Source: an uncultured Eubacteriales bacterium (GTDB lineage: Bacteria; Bacillota; Clostridia; Lachnospirales; Lachnospiraceae). Taken from it: a stretch of DNA of 11,542 nucleotides. The notes below the pieces were generated by a model, which ran no database searches, was not told the origin of the DNA, and saw nothing but the letters and a program-made list of their open reading frames with translations. Below are positions 2,772 to 11,430 of the stretch, piece after piece. The translations under genes were made by a program, and so were the position numbers. The DNA is taken from contig OMSZ01000018.1 in NCBI GenBank assembly GCA_900313855.1, positions 1 to 11,542 of the forward strand, written 5' to 3'. How positions within the stretch are numbered: the first letter of the stretch is position 1; each line of letters opens with the position of its first letter.

Positions 2772-3344
2772 TTAATTAAGCAGACCGTTATCAAGACATT
2801 CTTTGTCCTTCTTCTTCTGTTTCTCCTTATCTGAAGATTTCTTTCCCGAAGACTCCTTCTTCGCTGTTTCCTTCGATGCCTCAACAGCCTTATCAGCCAC
2901 CGACTTATCCTCTGTTACATACTCCTTTAATATGTAACCATCCTTACCATCGAATTCAACCTTGATGTAATCCCCTGAAGTCTCGTAAGTCTTGAGCTCA
3001 CTGCCGATCGGAACCACACCGAGATCATTCCCCGAACCTGATGCTTCCTCATGAAGAGTGACACTTTCCGTCGCATACATCGTTACGCCATCAGCGCTTT
3101 CACTATTTGCAGCAACATCATAAGCTTTATCTTCATCAGCATTTTCAGTAGTCACATCATCCTTTGCCACATCCTCAGTATTATCCTCGGATGTCTGCGA
3201 CTTAAGATCATCTGATGTCTCATTGTCCGAAACAATCTCTGTAGAACCTGTCTCAACTCTTGTATCTGCTGTATTACCACATGCCGTAAGACATATTCCG
3301 GCAAGCATTAATGTTGTTATCATAAAACTTTTATAACGTCTCAT
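2772..3344 (-). CDS. SH3b-domain lipoprotein
   Basis: A 190-aa predicted lipoprotein. A basic N-terminus and hydrophobic stretch (7-19) lead to the lipobox LTAC, with Cys22 as the lipidated residue. Residues 25-85 are acidic and Ser/Thr/Asp-rich, probably a flexible linker. Residues about 88-143 resemble a bacterial SH3 (SH3b) domain, including GVVPIGSELKTY and YIKVEFDGKDGYILKEYV; such domains bind peptidoglycan or other wall ligands. The tail (155-181) is Lys/Ser/Glu-rich. It follows the transglutaminase-like gene by 15 bases, so it is the last gene of the operon; the GGTGAT before its ATG can act as RBS. It probably sits on the outer face of the membrane and contacts the wall. No catalytic residues are recognised. 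Confidence 0.8.
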   Translation of the reverse strand: MRRYKSFMITTLMLAGICLTACGNTADTRVETGSTEIVSDNETSDDLKSQTSEDNTEDVAKDDVTTENADEDKAYDVAANSESADGVTMYATESVTLHEEASGSGNDLGVVPIGSELKTYETSGDYIKVEFDGKDGYILKEYVTEDKSVADKAVEASKETAKKESSGKKSSDKEKQKKKDKECLDNGLLN

Positions 3345-3359
3345 ATCATCACCATTTCC

Positions 3360-4070
3360 TTACTTAAGTTCTTTCTTCTTCTTTGAAAAATATCTGTAAT
3401 GTTTCTTGGCTCCGTACTTGAATTTCCAGCCTGCCTTATTGGTTCGCTCAAAATTCGGATCAAACACATACTTCTTCTTATCTATTTTGATAGTAGTCCA
3501 TGCATGCGCACCGAAATTCGCCGGTTTCCCGTTCTTTAAAGCCTGCGGAACACAGCCTCTTACAAAGACTGCATCATAGCCTAACACCTGTGCCATAGCA
3601 GTAAATGTTGCCGCCTGCGTGTTACAATCTCCCTTTGACTTTGAAAATCCATAGTTTGAATAATACTCAAGAGCAGCCGAGTCTTTCTTGATCTTCTTGG
3701 TAATATTGACATATTTAAGCTTTGATGACCATTTGAAAGCTTTTTTGAGGCACTTCAAAACCTTTTTCGCATCCTTTGAATTATCGGGAACAGCATCAAG
3801 CTCTATAAGCTTTTTTGCTGCATTTGCCTTAAAGCCTTCCCACTTTACCAAACTTCCGTCCGCATTGATACAGTAGTATTCATCCTTACCATCTTCATTT
3901 ATCTTATAAGCACATTTGTCAGTAACCATCACCCCGTTTTCATCATAATAGTGAAGTACGCCGTCTTCTTCTATCATTCCGGGTTCTGCCGCCCTGCACT
4001 GTAATACGGGTAATGCCATAAGCAAAAGCGCTGCTGTTATGAACACCCGGTTCAATTTCTTTTTCATCAT
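3360..4070 (-). CDS. exported transglutaminase-like protein with wall-binding-type repeats
   Basis: An exported protein of 236 aa from the ATG chosen here. A signal peptide ends near CRAA/EPG; the Cys there has Gln before it, so it is a poor lipobox. Residues about 31-80 contain short Tyr/Gly/Asp motifs (VLHYYDENGVM, EYYCINADGSLV) like cell-wall/choline-binding repeats. The C-terminal half looks like a transglutaminase/cysteine protease-like core: Cys149 in KGDCNTQAATF, His189 in GAHAWTTI and Asp204 in YVFDPNF, in the usual Cys-His-Asp order. Family members cleave or cross-link amide bonds, so an extracellular peptide or protein target is likely but unproven. It begins just after the upstream stop and ends 15 bases before the lipoprotein gene. 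A TTG at 4082 lies within the RBS and is rejected; ATG 4067 is a close alternative start. Confidence 0.82.
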   Translation of the reverse strand: MMKKKLNRVFITAALLLMALPVLQCRAAEPGMIEEDGVLHYYDENGVMVTDKCAYKINEDGKDEYYCINADGSLVKWEGFKANAAKKLIELDAVPDNSKDAKKVLKCLKKAFKWSSKLKYVNITKKIKKDSAALEYYSNYGFSKSKGDCNTQAATFTAMAQVLGYDAVFVRGCVPQALKNGKPANFGAHAWTTIKIDKKKYVFDPNFERTNKAGWKFKYGAKKHYRYFSKKKKELK

Positions 4071-4074
4071 CAAA

Positions 4075-4080
4075 TCCTCC
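4075..4080 (-). promoter_or_regulatory. RBS deciding the start of the second transglutaminase-like gene
   Basis: GGAGGA lies 4 bases before ATG 4070 and 7 before ATG 4067, immediately after the upstream gene's stop. It excludes the in-frame TTG at 4082, which would precede the RBS. Confidence 0.75.
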
Positions 4081-4082
4081 AA

Positions 4083-4898
4083 TTAGTTAAGATCTATCGG
4101 ACCTGCTCCATCCATATAATAGACTCCTGTTTTTTTATTTTTTGTCATGGATATCATAATGTTCTTATAATAATAATTATAACCGCGATAATTTTTCAGC
4201 ATAGCGCTGTCAAAATAAGCTCCCGGCTTAATATCAAACGGATTGCATGAGTTGCTTGATTTGATCTTCGTGGGTTTTCCAAACACCTTCTTAAGCTTCT
4301 TAGGCATATCCTTAGAAGTTTTCTTTCTCTTTACGGCTTTCTGATATTTCTTTGAAGCCTTCGCATCATATACTCCTGTTTTCTTGTTAAAGAATACAAG
4401 CTTATTATCAGTAGCCCAAAGTCCCGTTACACAATGACCGTTCTCATCAAAACCATACTTAGCGCCTTCAACAGTCTTTAATATAACCTTAGTTGTCTTC
4501 ATTCCGGCAAATCTCTCAGCCTTATAAGCCTTTCCGTCAGAGCCGAAATAGAATTTGAACTCACCCTTCTTGTCTGCCGCAGTCTTCCACGAATTACAAA
4601 GTGCTTTACCGTTTTCAATATAATATACTTCAAAGTCATCTTCGTCTTTGAATGTTTTAAGAGCCGTAAATGTACTTTGAACAACTCCGTCTTCAAAATA
4701 CAGATATTCCTCTCCTGCTTTAACGACACCACTTGCCTTTACAAGCTTACCGCTCTTTTTAACATAATAGACCGTACCCGTCTCGTCCCATCCTTCATTT
4801 ACAACCTCGGCATTAACTGTGTGCATGGTACTTCCAAACGGCATGACCGTAAATGCGATCACTAACAATAATAATAACTTATAAAGCCTGTTCCGCAT
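4083..4898 (-). CDS. exported repeat protein with an unassigned C-terminal domain
   Basis: A secreted protein of about 271 aa. A signal peptide with a Leu-rich core ends near VNA/EVV. Residues about 35-180 carry imperfect aromatic/glycine repeats (TVYYVKKSGKLVKASGVVKAGEEYLYFEDG is one region; KFYFGSDGKAY, KYGFDENGHCVTGLW and VFFNKKTGVYD are others) typical of cell-wall-binding repeats. A Lys-rich hinge (184-212) leads to a small domain with NSCNPFDIKPGAYFD and a Tyr-rich stretch (GYNYYYKN). I do not recognise this domain and see no Cys-His-Asp core, so it may be a binding or structural partner of the two transglutaminase-like proteins. It touches the carrier protein gene end to start. An ATG at 4904 overlaps the carrier stop as ATGA; ATG 4898 is preferred because GGGGTGA then sits at normal spacing. 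Confidence 0.75.
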   Translation of the reverse strand: MRNRLYKLLLLLVIAFTVMPFGSTMHTVNAEVVNEGWDETGTVYYVKKSGKLVKASGVVKAGEEYLYFEDGVVQSTFTALKTFKDEDDFEVYYIENGKALCNSWKTAADKKGEFKFYFGSDGKAYKAERFAGMKTTKVILKTVEGAKYGFDENGHCVTGLWATDNKLVFFNKKTGVYDAKASKKYQKAVKRKKTSKDMPKKLKKVFGKPTKIKSSNSCNPFDIKPGAYFDSAMLKNYRGYNYYYKNIMISMTKNKKTGVYYMDGAGPIDLN

Positions 4899-4900
4899 TA

Positions 4901-5128
4901 TCATTCACCCCGCATTCTCTGTATCATATTCCAAAGAGCCTGAGCCGAATTAAAGTTCTCGGGAATGATCTCTGCCGGCGTCAGCTTAATACCAAAGGTT
5001 TCGCTAATCTCACTCACTATTGATAAAATATCAAATGACGAAAAAATCTTATCGTCAACAAGTGCCGTTTCATTTTCAAAATCCACATCCGGGCAAATAT
5101 CTTCCAAAATTTCCATTAATTCTTCCAT
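4901..5128 (-). CDS. DltC-like acyl/aminoacyl carrier protein
   Basis: A 75-aa acidic protein of carrier-protein size and helical pattern. The modified serine is probably Ser31 in KIFSSFDILSIV, followed by ETFGIKLTPAEI, which matches the helix after the DSL motif of ACPs. The usual Asp before the serine is Ser30. It would receive 4'-phosphopantetheine, be loaded by the adenylation enzyme encoded upstream and deliver the group to the membrane acyltransferase. Start ATG 5128 is set by AAGGAG at 5138-5143 with 9-base spacing; ATG 5134 is too close. The frame stays open upstream to 5311, but that part lies inside the inserted repeat element and is not believed to be coding. D-alanyl carrier is the closest functional analogy, but the cargo is unknown. 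Confidence 0.85.
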   Translation of the reverse strand: MEELMEILEDICPDVDFENETALVDDKIFSSFDILSIVSEISETFGIKLTPAEIIPENFNSAQALWNMIQRMRGE

Positions 5129-5137
5129 AATCATCTT

Positions 5138-5143
5138 CTCCTT
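5138..5143 (-). promoter_or_regulatory. RBS that sets the carrier protein start
   Basis: AAGGAG lies 9 bases before ATG 5128 and only 3 before ATG 5134. It lies outside the inserted element, so the carrier gene keeps its own initiation signal. Confidence 0.75.
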
Positions 5144-5149
5144 TTTTGT

Positions 5150-5159
5150 TATTCTTATT
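5150..5159. repeat. direct repeat, left copy (putative target-site duplication)
   Basis: TATTCTTATT directly outside the left terminal inverted repeat (one base, T5160, between) and repeated exactly at 5422-5431. This is the pattern left by insertion with a staggered cut. Confidence 0.6.
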
Positions 5160-5160
5160 T

Positions 5161-5421
5161 TAGATAATTGCGAAACCCTTCGGAACTGTAAATTGTGTAT
5201 GCATATTATACAGAATCCATAAACAGACCCTTTCCGCTGTATACTTCGGACTAGGCTCACTAAGTTCGCCAAGGCCTCAGGTATGTGACCGCCGGTACTT
5301 AACGAACACAAAGTGTGAGTTTAGTACCGCTGCGTAAACAACGGAGCGAAAGCGTGTCTGTGTTGGAACTGTATAATATGCACAACAGCAAAAAACAAAG
5401 CAGGAGTTTCGCAATTATCTA
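5161..5421. mobile_element. MITE-like palindromic element between ligase and carrier genes
   Basis: A 261-bp segment bounded by perfect 16-bp terminal inverted repeats, TAGATAATTGCGAAAC at 5161-5176 and its reverse complement at 5406-5421. Inside is a second inverted repeat, GCATATTATACAG at 5201-5213 and its complement at 5369-5381, plus a strong hairpin at 5293-5329. GGAACTGTA occurs twice as a direct repeat (5182-5190, 5365-5373). There is no transposase and no credible ORF. Exact 10-bp direct repeats flank it. This structure fits a non-autonomous MITE or other mobile palindromic repeat. In the operon transcript the ends could pair into a long stem between the ligase and carrier cistrons, possibly altering read-through, RNA processing or the protein ratio. 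It accounts for the whole gene-free stretch here. Family identity is unknown. Confidence 0.75.
5293..5329. repeat. imperfect hairpin inside the MITE-like element
   Basis: CGGTACT, AAC and ACAC pair with GTGT, GTT and AGTACCG in a 17-position stem with three mismatches (positions 8, 12 and 13) and an AAA loop. No T-run follows on either strand, so it is not a classic intrinsic terminator. Confidence 0.6.
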
Positions 5422-5431
5422 TATTCTTATT
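5422..5431. repeat. direct repeat, right copy (putative target-site duplication)
   Basis: TATTCTTATT directly abuts the right terminal inverted repeat and matches 5150-5159. It overlaps the last bases of the ligase stop codon (5430-5432), so the insertion point was at the very end of that gene. Confidence 0.6.
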
Positions 5432-6938
5432 ATTTATTAAGCATCTGTTTTAATAAGCTTCGATCAAGCTTTCCGTTCTTAGTTATTGGCAGCTCATCAA
5501 GCTTTCTAAAGACATTGGGTATCATAAAATCCTGCAGATATACGCGTACCTTTGACACGATCTCCTGCTTGGTTATCTCGCCCTGATAAAAGCATACTAT
5601 CCTGTTCTTCTTATCGTCAAACACACAACAGCATTGCTTGATCTCTCCGATCTTATAAAGAGCCGTCTCTATCTCGCCAAGCTCAATCCTGTGCCCCATG
5701 TGCTTGATCTGAAAATCCTTACGGGATGCAAAACAAAGATCACCGTTTTCATCATAATATGCAAGATCACCGGTACGATAAATGGTCTCCTGCCACTTAT
5801 CATTTAGCGGATTATTGACAAATGACTTAGCGGTCTGTTCCGGATTATTATAATAACCTAACGCAAGTGCCGTTCCACTGACACAAAGCTCACCTTCAAC
5901 GCCATTAGTCCTGATCTCTTTATCCTCATCGTCAAGTAAAAAGACCTTTTCGTTATTAAACGGACGTCCTATCGGAATGACATCCCCATCAGAAAACTCC
6001 TTGTTTATCTCATAAAAAGTACAGTTGCAGGTTATTTCTGTCGGGCCGTAAAGATTAACGAATTTTATCTTCGGATAATATGATCTCCAATAATTCAGAT
6101 GCTTAACCGGCATCGTTTCTCCGGAAAACATTATCCGCCTGATACTTCCCGGTACCTTATAAGAAAGACCGTCAAATATCGAAACAATAGTTAACGCCGA
6201 TACCGCCCATGTAAGGTTGGTAACCTTTCTATCGTCCAAAAAATCCAGCAAGCGCATCGGAACCGAGAAATATTCTTTGGGTATCAGCTGCACCGTAGCA
6301 CCAACTGCCAATCCGCTGTATATATCCTTAACGGATACGTCGAAATCAAATGGCGCCTGATTGCCAAGCACATCATTCTCATCAATACCAAACTGCCTTG
6401 TAAATTCATTGATAAAATCAATTACAGAACGATGACAGACAACAACGCCCTTAGGTACGCCGGTAGAACCCGATGTAAAAAGCACGTATAACGGATCCGT
6501 ATCGAGCCGTTCCTTCTCAATCTGTTCAAGCGCTTTATCATCTGCCGCTTTCTTTCCCAACTCTTCTGCCAAAAGTATTTTGCCGGAAAATGCAAGCTCC
6601 TTTGCAAGATCAAGGTGCTCCTTTTCCGTGATCAGCACATCCGCGCCTAATGTTTCTAAAATCTGATTAAGTCTTAACACCGGCTGCGTGGGATCTAATA
6701 TTATATAAAAGCCTCCCGCAGCTATAACGCCCATCATAATCTTAATCGTTGAAACACTTTTATCCATAAGCAGCGGAACCGGTTTTCTCTGGCATGAAAG
6801 CAAAGCAAGCTCTGTCCCTATACTCCTTGCATAAGATTCGAGCTCTTTAAATGTTACAGAGCTTTTCTCATCTGAAAACGCTGTTTTTTCAGGTCTTTCA
6901 ATAGCCTGTTTTTTTAAATGATCCAATACATTATTCAT
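5430..6938 (-). CDS. DltA-like amino acid adenylation enzyme (carrier protein ligase)
   Basis: A stand-alone ANL adenylation enzyme of 502 aa, the size of DltA. It should activate an amino or other carboxylic acid with ATP and load it on the carrier protein encoded next. Visible motifs: P-loop LFTSGSTGVPKG (153-164), APFDFDVSVKDIY with the substrate-amine-binding Asp200, NLYGPTE (295-301), YRTGDL (387-392), the hinge region FQIKHMGHRIELGEIE with Arg417, and the C-terminal catalytic Lys490 in NGKLDR. Aligned by eye to B. cereus DltA with a constant offset of 3, Asp200 matches Asp197, and Ser272 (MFSGE) falls where DltA has Cys269, the residue that favours D-alanine. Conserved Asp200 argues for an amino acid substrate, but D-alanine is not assured. 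It lies 30 bases after the SGNH gene and is separated from the carrier gene by the inserted element. Confidence 0.88.
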   Translation of the reverse strand: MNNVLDHLKKQAIERPEKTAFSDEKSSVTFKELESYARSIGTELALLSCQRKPVPLLMDKSVSTIKIMMGVIAAGGFYIILDPTQPVLRLNQILETLGADVLITEKEHLDLAKELAFSGKILLAEELGKKAADDKALEQIEKERLDTDPLYVLFTSGSTGVPKGVVVCHRSVIDFINEFTRQFGIDENDVLGNQAPFDFDVSVKDIYSGLAVGATVQLIPKEYFSVPMRLLDFLDDRKVTNLTWAVSALTIVSIFDGLSYKVPGSIRRIMFSGETMPVKHLNYWRSYYPKIKFVNLYGPTEITCNCTFYEINKEFSDGDVIPIGRPFNNEKVFLLDDEDKEIRTNGVEGELCVSGTALALGYYNNPEQTAKSFVNNPLNDKWQETIYRTGDLAYYDENGDLCFASRKDFQIKHMGHRIELGEIETALYKIGEIKQCCCVFDDKKNRIVCFYQGEITKQEIVSKVRVYLQDFMIPNVFRKLDELPITKNGKLDRSLLKQMLNK

Positions 6939-6968
6939 TGTTATCTTCTCTTTTTATTATTACTTGTT

Positions 6969-7943
6969 TTATTCTTCCAAAAGCACTCTCGCTAACACAT
7001 CAGAAAACTCTCTTGCAGCATCTCCATTCATGTGCCCGTCAAGATCTGTGTAGCTGTCAAGATCGTGCTTTGTCATTTCATAATATTTACCGTAGTTAAA
7101 ATTGATATAAGACTTGCCGGCTTTCTCAAAAAAATCAGAATAGTATTTATCAAGCGCCGCATTACCCTCCTTACACGCTTCTAATGTCACATCAGAAAGC
7201 GGAGTAGTCACAGCTACAAACTCTATATCATTGTCATCACAAACCCTGATGATCTCTTTAAGATCCTTCATATTCTTTTTGACAATATCTTCAGGGAACC
7301 ATTCGTCAAGAAGGTCTATATCAGAATCCGATACTTCAACCGGATATCTCTCTATAAAGCCGCTCTCATGATATTTCTGTGTTTCCGTCTCAAAACCGTC
7401 TTCACTGTAATCCTTAGAAAGCTTCTTATTAATTGTTTCCCCTGCATGACTTATCTCATAGGAAAGAGCGTACTCATACCAAGGGAAAAACAATGTACGA
7501 AAATCACACTTAAGTATTGTCGACTTAAAGTACTCAAGCTTTGAAGCACTAAGCGGAAACTCATGATAAAACAAAAGATAGTTATTACCAACTTCCTTCT
7601 CACGTACAAAATATCCCGGCGAAACCTCATACACAATTCTCTTCGGAGTATGTCCCTTCTCTATCATAAGCTTAATAAGATAGAGTACATCCTCGGGATA
7701 CTCACCGCCAACACAGAGATTGTGACCCGTTCTGCCATCAACCTTTTTCATAGTCTCGGGATCAATATTCATTTTGCCATGCGATGTTCCGACGAACACA
7801 TCATCAAAGCTTTTTGTTGAAACCGCATGGATATCATTTCTCATAAACGTACAGGGATACAGAACAAAATCAGCTGCCCATATTATTGCAAACAGCACTA
7901 CTATTACCCCTATTGCTGATAATATCTTCTTAAAACTGTGCAT
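6969..7943 (-). CDS. membrane-anchored SGNH/DltD-like protein
   Basis: A 324-aa protein with one N-terminal membrane segment (about 7-29) and an extracytoplasmic domain. It has the early serine motif VFVGTSHG with Ser54 and, near the C-terminus, LDGHMNGDAAREF with Asp302 and His304, as in SGNH hydrolase-like partners of MBOAT enzymes (DltD, AlgX/AlgJ types). Such proteins complete transfer of the acyl or aminoacyl group to an envelope polymer outside the membrane. Overall length is a little under DltD (about 390 aa), and I would not assign dltD on sequence alone. It starts within the MBOAT gene (14-base overlap), indicating tight translational coupling; AAAGGA upstream serves as RBS. The acceptor polymer is unknown; teichoic acid, lipoglycan and exopolysaccharide are all possible. 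Confidence 0.82.
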   Translation of the reverse strand: MHSFKKILSAIGVIVVLFAIIWAADFVLYPCTFMRNDIHAVSTKSFDDVFVGTSHGKMNIDPETMKKVDGRTGHNLCVGGEYPEDVLYLIKLMIEKGHTPKRIVYEVSPGYFVREKEVGNNYLLFYHEFPLSASKLEYFKSTILKCDFRTLFFPWYEYALSYEISHAGETINKKLSKDYSEDGFETETQKYHESGFIERYPVEVSDSDIDLLDEWFPEDIVKKNMKDLKEIIRVCDDNDIEFVAVTTPLSDVTLEACKEGNAALDKYYSDFFEKAGKSYINFNYGKYYEMTKHDLDSYTDLDGHMNGDAAREFSDVLARVLLEE

Positions 7944-9444
7944 ATATGAATCCTTTCGGAGCTGCCGTTGAACCGAACAGACCTATCATCAAAAATAATA
8001 CTATACAGATCGCAGCTGACACCGGTACCGGAAGTGCTAATATCTTTTCAAAAACATCAATACCGCGCTCCTTTAATACACCAACTGTCACCATAATGAT
8101 ACATCCGACTGCGATGATCAAAAGCGCGTACGGAACAAATTCCGTACCCTTGCTTCCTGCAGCTATATCTAAAATCTGTGACCAATTAAAATGTGTAAAT
8201 GCCTGCTTTACAAGGTAGTTCCCCTCAGTCAAAGTATCAGAGCGGTCATAAAACCACCTGAGATTAACGATTATATATGTTCGTACGATCTGAAACAGCT
8301 TATACCATGTTTCCTTACCTGAAATATGTAAGGCTTTTTTCCAATTTCTATATGTTCCGCCCATCAATTCGCTAAATGCTATTATACCACCATTTAACAG
8401 ACCGTAAACAACATATTTCCAGCTTGCGCCATGCCATATTCCCACAAGGAAAAATACTATAAGATCCGCTAAAGCTATCGGAACAACACGCCCCATTTTC
8501 TTTCCGAAGGTTTTTCTTGACCAGCCTGAGAATTTCACCATCCATCCTGATAAAGATACGGGATAGAATACATAATTCATCATCCACTCACCCAGAGTGA
8601 TATGCCAGCGCTTCCAGAAATCAGCCATTGATATAGCAAGGTAGGGTTGTCTGAAATTCTCATCCATCTCAATTCCAAAAAGTCTTCCGATTCCTATAAC
8701 TACATCCATACCACCGGAGAAATCGGCATATAGCTGGATACCGTAAAATACCAGTCCTAAAAGCACTGCTCCGTTATACTGATCCGGATTCTCCCATATA
8801 GCGTCGGCAAAAATTCCTGCCCAATCCGCTATGATTATCTTCTTGGCAAAGCCCCATATTATTCTTGTCAATCCCTTAGCTATGTTATTCCATTCAAAAC
8901 GATTCTCATTAAGCAGCTGCGGTGCCAACCGGTTATAGTTTCCGATAGGTCCCTGCATGATCTGTGGGAAAAATGAGATAAAAAGAGCAAACTTGAAAAT
9001 ATTAGTCTCAGCCTTTGCCTTTCTCCAATATACATCCAACAGATATCCAACCGATTGAAAAGTATAGAACGAAATACCAAGCGGGAATAATATCTTGATT
9101 CCCGGAATATTAAGTCCGCTTAAGGAATTAAATGTATCCACAAAAAATCCCGCGTATTTAACAATGCCAAGCATTAAAAAACTTAATAGGACACCAAACG
9201 TGATCACCCGTTTTTGCACCTTGGCTTCTGTATTCTTCTGCTGCATTCGATCGATCGCTAATCCGAACAGATAGACAACTATCGTAGAATACAGAATAAA
9301 GAACAGATAACGTACACCTCCTGCCAGATAATATATGTAGGAAAATATCAGAAGTATTATCCATCTTACCTTTGCAGGAACCAGATAATAACAGACTACT
9401 GCTGCCAAAACAAATATAATAAATGCATTCGAAATCAGCGACAC
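7930..9444 (-). CDS. MBOAT-family membrane acyltransferase (DltB/AlgI-like)
   Basis: A polytopic membrane protein of 504 aa. Family hallmarks are PLGISFYTFQSVGYLLDVY (121-139), QIMQGPIGNYNRLAPQL (161-177), LYADFSGGMDVVIGIGRLFGI (238-258), FWKRWHITLGEW with His281, and LVGIWHGASWKYVVYG with the invariant catalytic-type His338. In DltB and AlgI these enzymes take an acyl group from a cytoplasmic donor and deliver it across the membrane to a partner protein. The protein ends in KGFIYAQF, resembling the FIYFQF tail of AlgI-type enzymes and the functional C-terminus of DltX. The start is GTG at 9444, supported by GGGGAG 7 bases upstream; the preceding stop is 14 bases away and the next gene overlaps by 14. 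The small protein DltX is not seen in the operon. Family certain; the transferred group is inferred to be an amino acid from the adjacent ligase and carrier. Confidence 0.93.
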   Translation of the reverse strand: MSLISNAFIIFVLAAVVCYYLVPAKVRWIILLIFSYIYYLAGGVRYLFFILYSTIVVYLFGLAIDRMQQKNTEAKVQKRVITFGVLLSFLMLGIVKYAGFFVDTFNSLSGLNIPGIKILFPLGISFYTFQSVGYLLDVYWRKAKAETNIFKFALFISFFPQIMQGPIGNYNRLAPQLLNENRFEWNNIAKGLTRIIWGFAKKIIIADWAGIFADAIWENPDQYNGAVLLGLVFYGIQLYADFSGGMDVVIGIGRLFGIEMDENFRQPYLAISMADFWKRWHITLGEWMMNYVFYPVSLSGWMVKFSGWSRKTFGKKMGRVVPIALADLIVFFLVGIWHGASWKYVVYGLLNGGIIAFSELMGGTYRNWKKALHISGKETWYKLFQIVRTYIIVNLRWFYDRSDTLTEGNYLVKQAFTHFNWSQILDIAAGSKGTEFVPYALLIIAVGCIIMVTVGVLKERGIDVFEKILALPVPVSAAICIVLFLMIGLFGSTAAPKGFIYAQF

Positions 9445-9451
9445 GATCTTT

Positions 9452-9457
9452 CTCCCC
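9452..9457 (-). promoter_or_regulatory. RBS supporting the GTG start of the MBOAT gene
   Basis: GGGGAG is placed 7 bases before GTG 9444, between that start and the stop of the preceding gene. It explains why a non-ATG start is accepted here. Confidence 0.65.
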
Positions 9458-9458
9458 G

Positions 9459-10400
9459 TTAAAACTTTACTTTCTTATATACCTTAAAATCCTTGAGCAA
9501 AGGTTCTTTTGCCGCAAACCTCGCTCCCATATTATCGTAATACTTTCCATCTATCATAACTACCGCATGATCGACATCCATTACAATAACATAAGGTTCA
9601 TACCCTAACTCCTTTGCAAATGAAGCAAATGTACATGCCTGTCCATAGCAATTAAGCCTTCCGTTAGACAGAACCATACTTGCTATATTATAAGGAAAAT
9701 CCTTCTTTTCTGTTTCTTTCCGGTCAATACAGCCCGGTACATAATTACCCGCCTCTAAGCAGTTAAAAAGAGTACGTAATTTACTTTTTTTGCTCATTTT
9801 TGAAGTCGTATGCTTATCAATATAACGGCAGGTAGCTTTACTGCAGCTAACCTGTATTTTCGAAAGTTTTTCAGCCACACCCTTATTGTTAGTACGATAC
9901 CATTTACCCTTATATTTGAAGGGTTTTGTAAAACCGCGAAGCTCCCCTGTCTTCTCAAAGCCATATAACGTCTTCCCGATCTTCACAATTCCGGTTGCTA
10001 AGACACCGCCCTTTTTGACGTAGTATTTTATCCCTTTAATCTTTTTCCAGCCCTTCTTAGTAAAAAGACGACCTGTTTTTGTATCAAAATAGTACCATTT
10101 ACCCTTAACCTTATTAAGTCCGTAAAGTCGCTTTCCGTTCTTGTCAAGAAGGTATTTGTCGCCATTTATACTATTAATCCCTGCCTTCTTAAGTACCGAA
10201 CCATCACTTTGATAATAATAATACGAACCATCCTTATTGACCCACTGATCTTTCAATACTTCTTCCGTAGAAGCTGTTTTCATCTCAGTATTCTCTGTCA
10301 GTTCAGCCGCAATGATCCTATCCGGTTTAAAAAAGATCAAAGCGCACAATATCGGTATTATTAATGCATATATTATTTTTCTATTCACAATATTTTCCAT
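9459..10400 (-). CDS. exported wall-binding-repeat protein with transglutaminase-like domain
   Basis: The first gene of the operon, 313 aa. A hydrophobic signal segment (9-24) ends near IIAA/ELT. Residues about 51-180 contain six or so Tyr/Gly/Lys repeats (SYYYYQSDGSVLKKAGI, KWYYFDTKTGRLFTKKGW, KYYVKKGGVLATGI, TLYGFEKTGELRGF and others) like cell-wall/choline/glucan-binding repeats. The C-terminal part (about 185-313) has a transglutaminase-like core: Cys251 in RLNCYGQAC, His278 in DVDHAVVMIDGKYY and Asp289 in YYDNMGARF. Six further or catalytic cysteines in the exported part (186, 191, 214, 224, 251, 256) suggest possible disulfides or a reducing habitat. The operon promoter lies about 75 bases upstream. 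A surface protease or cross-linker anchored by its repeats is the best inference. Confidence 0.83.
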   Translation of the reverse strand: MENIVNRKIIYALIIPILCALIFFKPDRIIAAELTENTEMKTASTEEVLKDQWVNKDGSYYYYQSDGSVLKKAGINSINGDKYLLDKNGKRLYGLNKVKGKWYYFDTKTGRLFTKKGWKKIKGIKYYVKKGGVLATGIVKIGKTLYGFEKTGELRGFTKPFKYKGKWYRTNNKGVAEKLSKIQVSCSKATCRYIDKHTTSKMSKKSKLRTLFNCLEAGNYVPGCIDRKETEKKDFPYNIASMVLSNGRLNCYGQACTFASFAKELGYEPYVIVMDVDHAVVMIDGKYYDNMGARFAAKEPLLKDFKVYKKVKF

Positions 10401-10580: not shown

Positions 10581-10802
10581 TCACTCATTTACAACGGTTT
10601 CATCATATTCCAATATATCGCCCGGTTGACAATGCAGTGCCTCACATATCGCCTCTAATGTTGAAAAACGTATGGCACTTATCCTTCCATTCTTCATCTT
10701 TGACAGATTGACATTAGATACTCCAACTGTCTCGGAAAGCTCTGACAGTGACATCTTACGGTCAGCCATCACGCGGTCTAATCTTAAAACAATCTTACCC
10801 AT
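10581..10802 (-). CDS. small XRE-family HTH regulator (YozG-like)
   Basis: A 73-aa protein that is almost entirely one Cro/CI helix-turn-helix domain. MSLSELSETVGVSNVNLSKMKNGRI (17-41) shows the two DNA-contacting helices, followed by IRFSTLEAICEALHCQPGDILEYD (44-67), the usual closing helices. In Bacillus this type (YozG) sits beside a DUF2975 membrane protein, as here. ATG 10802 is chosen because AAGGAGGT precedes it by 4 bases; an ATG at 10826 would extend into the neighbouring gene and lies upstream of this RBS. The RBS overlaps the stop of the membrane gene, implying translational coupling. It probably controls its own operon, perhaps under control of the membrane partner, which is inference from the conserved pairing. 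Confidence 0.88.
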   Translation of the reverse strand: MGKIVLRLDRVMADRKMSLSELSETVGVSNVNLSKMKNGRISAIRFSTLEAICEALHCQPGDILEYDETVVNE

Positions 10803-10806
10803 AATG

Positions 10807-10815
10807 ACCTCCTTA
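10807..10815 (-). promoter_or_regulatory. RBS overlapping the upstream stop codon
   Basis: TAAGGAGGT contains both the TAA stop of the DUF2975 gene and the Shine-Dalgarno of the regulator gene, so termination and re-initiation are likely coupled. Confidence 0.75.
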
Positions 10816-11430
10816 TAATGTCTCATCTGATTGGATTTTCAAGAGTCTTCCGTAATCCATGATCGTATATACAGCCCATGTCACAAGTCCTAACAATATT
10901 GCAAAACCCATTCCTGATGTAAGCGCCAATATAACGGTAAGAATTATCATAGAGGTAAGAATACGCTTTAATACCTTATCAGCAAAAGGATTGCCCTCCT
11001 TTAATATTGTCTCAAACACCGTTGAAATAGTCCATATAGCAAAGGTCATAACAAAGCATATCACAGCAACCAATAAACAATACATTCCCATAACAAGTGA
11101 AGATGAGTCTCCATTCTCATCAAAAAACTCATTAAGTGCCGGAATCGATGATTCAAGCTTTAAGCTTTCTGCCATTTTGATATCACCGTCATCAATAGTA
11201 CCGAACTTAAATGAACCTATCGAGATATCTTTACTAACATTTGAATTAGTAACGCTTTCCTTAATCTTCTCATCCATATTCTTACGATTAGCGATAAGTA
11301 CTATCCCTGAAATAAATGTAAGCACCGTTGCCACCATAAAACAAATGAAAAAGATCTTAGAACAAACCTTAGCCGCCTTGCAGCTCTTGATAACATTCTC
11401 TAATTTAACATTCTCCTCATTGACATTCAT
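10813..11430 (-). CDS. DUF2975 family membrane protein (YoaS-like)
   Basis: A 205-aa protein with four predicted membrane segments (about 24-47, 112-135, 157-172, 174-192). A hydrophilic stretch of about 64 residues separates segments 1 and 2. ILKEGNPFADKVLKRI (142-157), with GNPF after the second segment, is the typical DUF2975 signature. The biochemical function of the family is unknown; it is often paired with a small XRE regulator, as here, and may sense an envelope or small-molecule signal and pass it to that regulator. The start is supported by AAGGAG at 11439-11444 with 8-base spacing. No promoter of its own is convincing, so the transcription unit probably begins beyond the window edge or within the palindromic sequence upstream. 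Confidence 0.83.
   Translation of the reverse strand: MNVNEENVKLENVIKSCKAAKVCSKIFFICFMVATVLTFISGIVLIANRKNMDEKIKESVTNSNVSKDISIGSFKFGTIDDGDIKMAESLKLESSIPALNEFFDENGDSSSLVMGMYCLLVAVICFVMTFAIWTISTVFETILKEGNPFADKVLKRILTSMIILTVILALTSGMGFAILLGLVTWAVYTIMDYGRLLKIQSDETL

Follow-up and report, generated by a model that had tools for sequence, protein, structure and literature searches.

An uncultured Lachnospiraceae bacterium (an uncultured Eubacteriales bacterium in GenBank assembly GCA_900313855.1) carries on contig OMSZ01000018.1 a run of genes that probably encodes a single conserved system for modifying the envelope, composed of two cassettes: an aminoacyl relay resembling the Dlt pathway, and a surface cassette of exported proteins that would act at the acceptor of that relay. 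The stretch analysed, called the window below, is the complete contig of 11,542 nucleotides (C49), one of 425 in a draft genome of 2.2 Mb that is 80% complete. Eight minus-strand genes form a tight run from position 10400 down to 2772 and encode, in that order, an exported transglutaminase-fold (TG) protein, here TGA, an MBOAT acyltransferase, an SGNH transferase, an adenylating ligase, a carrier protein, an exported repeat protein (CWR), a second exported TG protein (TGB), and an SH3b lipoprotein with a conserved C-terminal tail, which we call the tagged protein; the single long intergenic gap, of 298 bases, separates the ligase and carrier genes. The initial annotation had described a run of eight genes that combines a relay with four exported proteins, and that observation and its gene list are confirmed here, but it overlooked the decarboxylase found in relatives, the acyl-shuttle motif fused to the MBOAT protein, and the tail in which the SH3b protein ends.

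Linkage of the relay and the surface cassette

Comparison of related loci strongly supports the coupling of the relay to the exported cassette. A search of genome contigs with an SGNH alignment yielded 43 loci which, together with the window and locus L032, make up 45 clade loci whose SGNH scores are 297 bits or higher; the cut of 290 bits was chosen after the scores were known, the next locus scoring 231 bits, and some of the 45 are mutually close (L133, L137 and L138, for example). The count excludes nine loci that have no SGNH gene, and six duplicates. Same-strand TG genes lie within 6 kb at 38 of the 45 clade loci, versus 1 of 24 more distant relatives. At 34 of these clade loci a TG gene was seen together with an SH3b or other exported protein, and 28 have a CWR-type domain no more than 6 kb away. 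The sole distant locus with a TG gene, L097, is an outlier whose branch is very long, and the other surface genes were found at none of the 24. At six of the seven clade loci lacking TG genes the contig stops less than 3 kb upstream of SGNH, and the genome of the seventh (L117) carries a TG-CWR-TG-tagged protein-TG series on another contig (L228).

A tree of the MBOAT proteins, made by a quick method and without the fragments L111 and L116, places 40 of the 41 rows that have the module (relay plus surface cassette) in a single branch of 43 rows with a support of 99, the others being L115, L117 and L118; L097 falls outside this branch, and five label changes are needed over the whole tree. Matches to Transglut_core number 3 to 11 per genome in ten genomes, so that by our estimate a TG neighbour would arise by chance in something like a few percent of cases. 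The surface cassette is placed upstream in most subclades and downstream in that of the window, and the linkage therefore outlasts rearrangement. A chance neighbourhood is ruled out by the clade linkage, the Transglut_core background, the MBOAT tree and the unlinked cassette in the genome of L117. The functional link between relay and exported proteins proposed in the initial annotation is thus well supported by comparison, and its interpretation as a whole stands in part: MBOAT-SGNH pairs do occur without the exported genes among distant relatives, but in the window's own clade they are nearly always found with them.

MBOAT protein, fused shuttle motif and SGNH transferase

The MBOAT protein (7930..9444, minus strand, as for all genes and codons of the run given below) is a DltB-like acyltransferase, matching PF03062 with 61 bits and DltB structures with an E value of 4.5e-22; against TIGR04091 it scores 164 bits, below the cut-off of 375. 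Read from the sequence, it ends in the hexapeptide FIYAQF (codons 7933..7950), an instance of the acyl-shuttle motif FXYXXF. According to the portion of PMC12148441 available to us, this motif resides on DltX in the Dlt pathway and is fused to the MBOAT protein in other pathways, which have no carrier protein and use acyl-CoA as their source. At the clade loci the MBOAT C-terminus reads FIYAQF in 43 cases, FLYAQF in one, and has unknown or odd letters in one (FXYXXF in 44 of 45), while the catalytic His region (WHG) is present in all 45; the MBOAT proteins of the distant, decarboxylase-bearing relatives described below also end in this motif or a variant. No DltX-like open reading frame (ORF) was seen in the window run: among ORFs of at least 20 residues in the two sufficiently long gaps, none ends in FXYXXF. 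Since the MBOAT protein ends in FIYAQF, the predicted relay unites a ligase and carrier of Dlt type with a fused shuttle motif of Pat type.

The SGNH transferase (6969..7943) has one N-terminal membrane helix and, in its predicted model (pLDDT 89.9), a DltD fold; the top structural matches are DltD, and the model matches the PatB fold too. The fold is assigned from this model, the sequence profile alone giving a weak match to DltD (E 0.31). Ser54, Asp300, Gly303 and His304 are invariant in the 22 aligned proteins, and D-x-[DE]-G-H is present at all 45 clade loci, with a simple pattern for the serine matching at 37.

Ligase, carrier and cargo

The ligase (5430..6938) is a DltA-like, amino-acid adenylating enzyme that scores 345 bits with TIGR01733, above the cut-off, and 274-286 bits with DltA models, below theirs (274.5 for the TIGR01734 equivalog, with a cut-off of 559.85). 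The genus was represented by 26 genomes, in which a single ligase, that of G257 (564 bits), reaches the DltA cut-off; another, in G268, lies just under it (535 bits). The latter heads a run sized and ordered like DltA-DltB-DltC-DltD, with a DltB of 385 residues that lacks the shuttle motif, and the module of G268 is on a contig separate from that dltABCD run (L085/L105). By alignment, the pocket letters of the window ligase are DVKTMSLCNK versus DLMVLCTVAK in the true DltA of G268, from the same genus, the positions being named by the GrsA scheme. A separate canonical dltABCD, for which the initial annotation had suggested a check, is present in G268, but in the window's own genome (80% complete) and in G264 (98% complete) no further close or DltA-grade ligase was seen. 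Because the ligase pocket is unlike that of DltA, and because a true dltABCD coexists with the module in G268, this is not the usual D-alanylation operon; a canonical dlt operon is ruled out by the scores, the pocket, the fused motif and that coexistence. The pocket suggests that the cargo may be an amino acid other than D-alanine.

The carrier protein (4901..5131) is DltC-like, with 22.5 bits against NF003464 (DltC, cut-off 68) and 17.8 bits against PP-binding (cut-off 20.8). A loose pattern for the carrier serine motif matches in 38 of 41 clade carrier ORFs.

Operons with ligase, LysA/TIGR03099-like pyridoxal phosphate (PLP) decarboxylase, carrier, MBOAT and SGNH genes, and no surface genes, are found at L033, L034, L037-L042, L047 and L086-L090. 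Their decarboxylase matches the TIGR03099 and LysA models below the respective cut-offs, and its presence suggests a decarboxylated amino acyl cargo, for which these operons are apparently the relay. When nine genomes were searched (those of L136 and of eight of the loci with no ligase within 6 kb), seven had a ligase elsewhere, 42-55% identical, and six of these seven unlinked ligases adjoin a decarboxylase gene; in Mediterraneibacter glycyrrhizinilyticus (L135) a decarboxylase-type operon directly precedes the module. Together, the position of these ligases and the arrangement at L135 suggest that a charged carrier is shared between the module and the decarboxylase-type operon. In the available sequence of the window's own genome no decarboxylase was found at E 1e-15, so that the amino acid is probably transferred unchanged here.

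With the duplicates L031 and L081-L085 left out, 18 of 19 ligases that have a decarboxylase next to them show Ile or Val at pocket position 4, and 17 of the 23 DVK-type ligases with none next to them show Thr there. The expectation that Ile-type genomes of the second kind would contain a decarboxylase at another site was, however, not borne out. Five of the six Ile-type genomes without an adjacent decarboxylase (all except that of L049) were searched at E 1e-15, and one has an unlinked decarboxylase (G293, 32% identity). None was found at the same threshold in G285, which has the module and no DVK-type ligase. Distant, unlinked decarboxylases are present in the Thr-type genomes G264, G265 and G255, and at L196 a Thr-type ligase lies beside a decarboxylase. 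The failure of this link means that the pocket difference may reflect only ancestry.

Two further variations on the ligase and carrier were seen. At L049:11922-14327 a formyltransferase-like gene (PF00551) lies between ligase and carrier within a relay, which hints at a formylated cargo there. L091-L100, from the same genus, are pairs of a DltA-like ligase and a carrier with other pocket letters and, L097 excepted, no full-length MBOAT or SGNH gene nearby.

The tagged protein and the exported repeat proteins

The SH3b lipoprotein (2772..3344) matches SH3_3 with 33 bits, has a lipobox, LTAC, recognized by eye, and consists beyond that of a variable linker and the conserved tail, which reads CLDNGLLN before the stop (codons 2772..2798, stop included). 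All 26 aligned tagged proteins share this C-terminal ending, with a middle part that varies: Pfam recognizes SH3b in nine of them and mostly no named domain in the rest. A search for a solved relative of the other middle domain found none, the best match being a ribosomal protein at E 0.014. In the annotated loci (the window, L032-L050 and L086-L143) the tail pattern matches 37 of 4504 ORFs longer than 60 residues, and all 37 are module proteins. The tail Cys is exactly the eighth residue from the end in every one; it is followed by Leu in 33, Val in three and Ile in one, the fourth position after it is Gly in 34 and Ala in three, and the last residue is Asn in 26 and Tyr in seven. It is the sole Cys beyond residue 40 in 26 of the 37, further cysteines occurring in the other 11, and a lipobox pattern matches in 15. 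In a profile search with this protein type 37 of 38 matches have the tail, the remaining one being a generic SH3 protein about 6 kb off. The L120 protein bears five copies of the tail, distributed over the linker region and the C-terminus. Of 125 homologues listed from a large protein database, 92 have the tail at their C-terminus, and the other 33, judged by eye, are truncated, frameshifted or end in unrelated sequence.

Of 11 genomes searched at the DNA level with a first tail pattern, 8 yielded the module protein, and G274, G276 and G277 were missed because their tails deviate from that pattern; of its five stray matches four are not ORF ends and one has no stop codon, and a backward control gave nine matches. 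A stricter pattern, which is blind to the tail of G138, matched in five of 250 genomes of the family, namely the module genomes G000 and G002 and three others in which the match is not the end of an ORF. With a single tagged ORF per genome wherever the pattern can see it, the tagged protein looks like part of a machine, and a general sorting signal is made unlikely. For 41 of the 45 clade loci a tagged protein was located in the locus or its genome: 37 have it in the locus itself, L108, L110 and L117 on other contigs, and L115 at a contig end.

TGA (9459..10400) is exported and combines choline-binding-type repeats (Choline_bind_3, 37 bits; Choline_bind_1, 31 bits) with a TG-fold domain, detected by an iterated profile, in which the Cys-His-Asp triad is aligned. 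It is the variable member of the cassette, and at L102, L103 and L104 is not directly upstream of the MBOAT gene. TGB (3360..4067), also exported, joins repeats to a transglutaminase core (Transglut_core, 32 bits, above cut-off) with the triad Cys148, His188 and Asp203. The triad is intact in 76 of the 77 TG domains of the annotated loci, the exception being a fragment near a contig end. The TG-fold proteins are thus predicted to be cysteine enzymes with wall-binding-type repeats, those of TGA and TGB being putatively of choline-binding type from their profile matches alone. CWR (4083..4904) is an exported repeat protein with a C-terminal domain that is conserved in the alignment, where Cys220 is present in 25 of 25; no convincing Pfam match was obtained for this domain. 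Natural fusions of CWR and TGB into a single exported protein occur at L101:12825-14213 and at L031/L107 (L107:4913-6106).

Proposed mechanism and alternatives

By analogy with Dlt and Pat biochemistry, transfer would run from ligase to carrier to MBOAT to SGNH. The ligase would adenylate the amino acid and load the carrier protein; the MBOAT protein would carry the amino acid through the membrane to the tyrosine in its own C-terminal FIYAQF; and the DltD-like SGNH protein would accept it on its serine and transfer it to an acceptor outside the cell, which is probably a wall or teichoic polymer. TagF-like polymerases (PF04464) in all eight genomes searched are weak evidence for such a polymer. 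The surface cassette, comprising at least two TG-fold cysteine enzymes, CWR and one tagged protein, would work on the aminoacylated acceptor, beside it or together with it, and we infer for the tail a role in docking, or in providing a reactive site, within this machine.

Several points weigh against this two-cassette scheme. The linkage demonstrates the coupling of relay and surface genes, not a mechanism, and the comparisons identified neither the cargo, nor the acceptor, nor the partner of the tail. Distant MBOAT-SGNH relatives do without the surface cassette (TG genes at 1 of 24). The carrier is below the PP-binding cut-off. No ligase lies within 6 kb at nine of the 45 clade loci; elsewhere in the genome, G284 (L134) gave weak matches only and G285 (L136) no ligase at the search threshold used, and in G282, one of the seven genomes with a ligase elsewhere, the pocket letters are quite different. 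The tagged protein was not found for L111, L116, L118 or L122, all on contigs that end less than 2 kb upstream of SGNH.

It is conceivable, though we consider it rather unlikely, that the tagged protein is an extracellular acyl-carrier arm, the tail Cys on its flexible linker taking the aminoacyl group and passing it as a thioester to the TG-fold enzymes, which would act as acyltransferases like arylamine N-acetyltransferases and deliver it to wall amines. Such an arm would fit a tail in which the Cys is the only invariant nucleophile, at its fixed distance from the end in all 37 proteins and without another Cys beyond residue 40 in 26, as well as the five copies in L120, the single tagged ORF in the pattern-searched genomes, the near-universal triads, and weak Acetyltransf_2 matches of TGB (E 0.044) and one relative. 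However, a thiol would have to take the acyl group from a serine ester, which is uphill, the comparisons revealed no partner of the tail, 11 of the 37 proteins have further cysteines, and the invariant Cys could instead be engaged in a disulfide with a residue such as Cys220 of CWR, which, being itself invariant, would fit as its partner. Among the bolder readings we prefer a mobile acyl site; a docking or disulfide role for the tail is as simple. If true, the arm would extend the logic of carrier proteins to the cell exterior and put the transglutaminase fold to a new use.

Sortase-like anchoring, in which the relay would add amine-bearing groups to the polymer and the TG-fold enzymes would cut or activate exported proteins and attach these to the amines, we regard as improbable. 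Transglutaminase chemistry accepts primary amines, and the exported tail and TG enzymes are co-conserved, but a sorting signal would be expected on many proteins, where the pattern searches gave one tagged ORF per genome, and cleavage at an inner tail copy of L120 would shed the remainder. There is little chance, in our judgement, that the exported repeat proteins, and not a polymer, are what the relay aminoacylates: such proteins are still found beside MBOAT-SGNH without a nearby ligase at L109, L124 and L134, but CWR has no invariant Ser or Thr, its invariant tyrosines sit in the repeats, and homologous relays modify polymers. That an ordinary dlt-like operon merely adjoins unrelated, hitchhiking surface-protein genes, as the distant relatives without surface genes might suggest, is highly improbable in view of linkage at 38 of 45 loci, kept despite rearrangement, and of the unlinked cassette in L117's genome.

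Relation to known systems

Envelope aminoacylation by the Dlt pathway governs charge, autolysis and resistance to cationic peptides. The two-cassette system resembles that pathway in having a ligase, a carrier, an MBOAT protein and an SGNH protein of DltD fold in one operon. It differs in that the MBOAT protein itself bears the shuttle motif with no DltX-like ORF seen, in its ligase pocket, in a ligase, carrier and MBOAT protein that score below the Dlt family cut-offs, and in the additional surface cassette. With PatA/PatB peptidoglycan O-acetylation and other fused-shuttle MBOAT-SGNH pairs it shares the C-terminal FXYXXF and an SGNH fold that matches PatB; unlike those pathways, which in the available portion of PMC12148441 are without a carrier and use acyl-CoA, it has both ligase and carrier. 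The Lachnospiraceae systems of ligase, decarboxylase, carrier, MBOAT and SGNH are similar in ligase (53-56% identical within the genus, with nearly the same pocket) and in MBOAT motif or variant, but add the PLP decarboxylase and lack the surface cassette. TGA and TGB recall choline-binding-repeat proteins with transglutaminase domains in their repeats and TG core, but differ in their association with a single relay clade and with the tagged protein, the choline-type assignment coming from profiles only.

Searches of the open-licence PMC literature listed no description of the module, and as far as those listings tell it is a new version of the MBOAT-SGNH relay with a surface cassette. It would constitute a second carrier-dependent relay in the Lachnospiraceae, found in Blautia, Mediterraneibacter and uncultured gut and rumen members, with Blautia sp. 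MSJ-9 (L126) and Marseille-P3087 (L114) among the isolates that carry it, one that unites a carrier protein with a fused shuttle, features kept apart in what is available of PMC12148441, and that is tied to a conserved tail of eight residues and to exported, putative cysteine enzymes whose triads are intact.

Upstream genes and an intergenic hairpin

Upstream of the run and on the same strand, the window encodes a Cro/C1-type regulator and a small membrane protein (10581-10826 and 10813-11430), of which no counterparts were seen in the examined stretches of 43 related loci. The gap between ligase and carrier genes contains a hairpin repeat element (5161..5421, no strand assigned) with perfect 16-base terminal inverted repeats. 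It has eight matches in its own genome, itself included, with one long relative at C406:1552-1833 (72%). Hairpins with similar ends occupy the same gap in G255 (L083) and G264 (L081), and the element may therefore have been inherited and have a regulatory role, instead of being a recent insertion.

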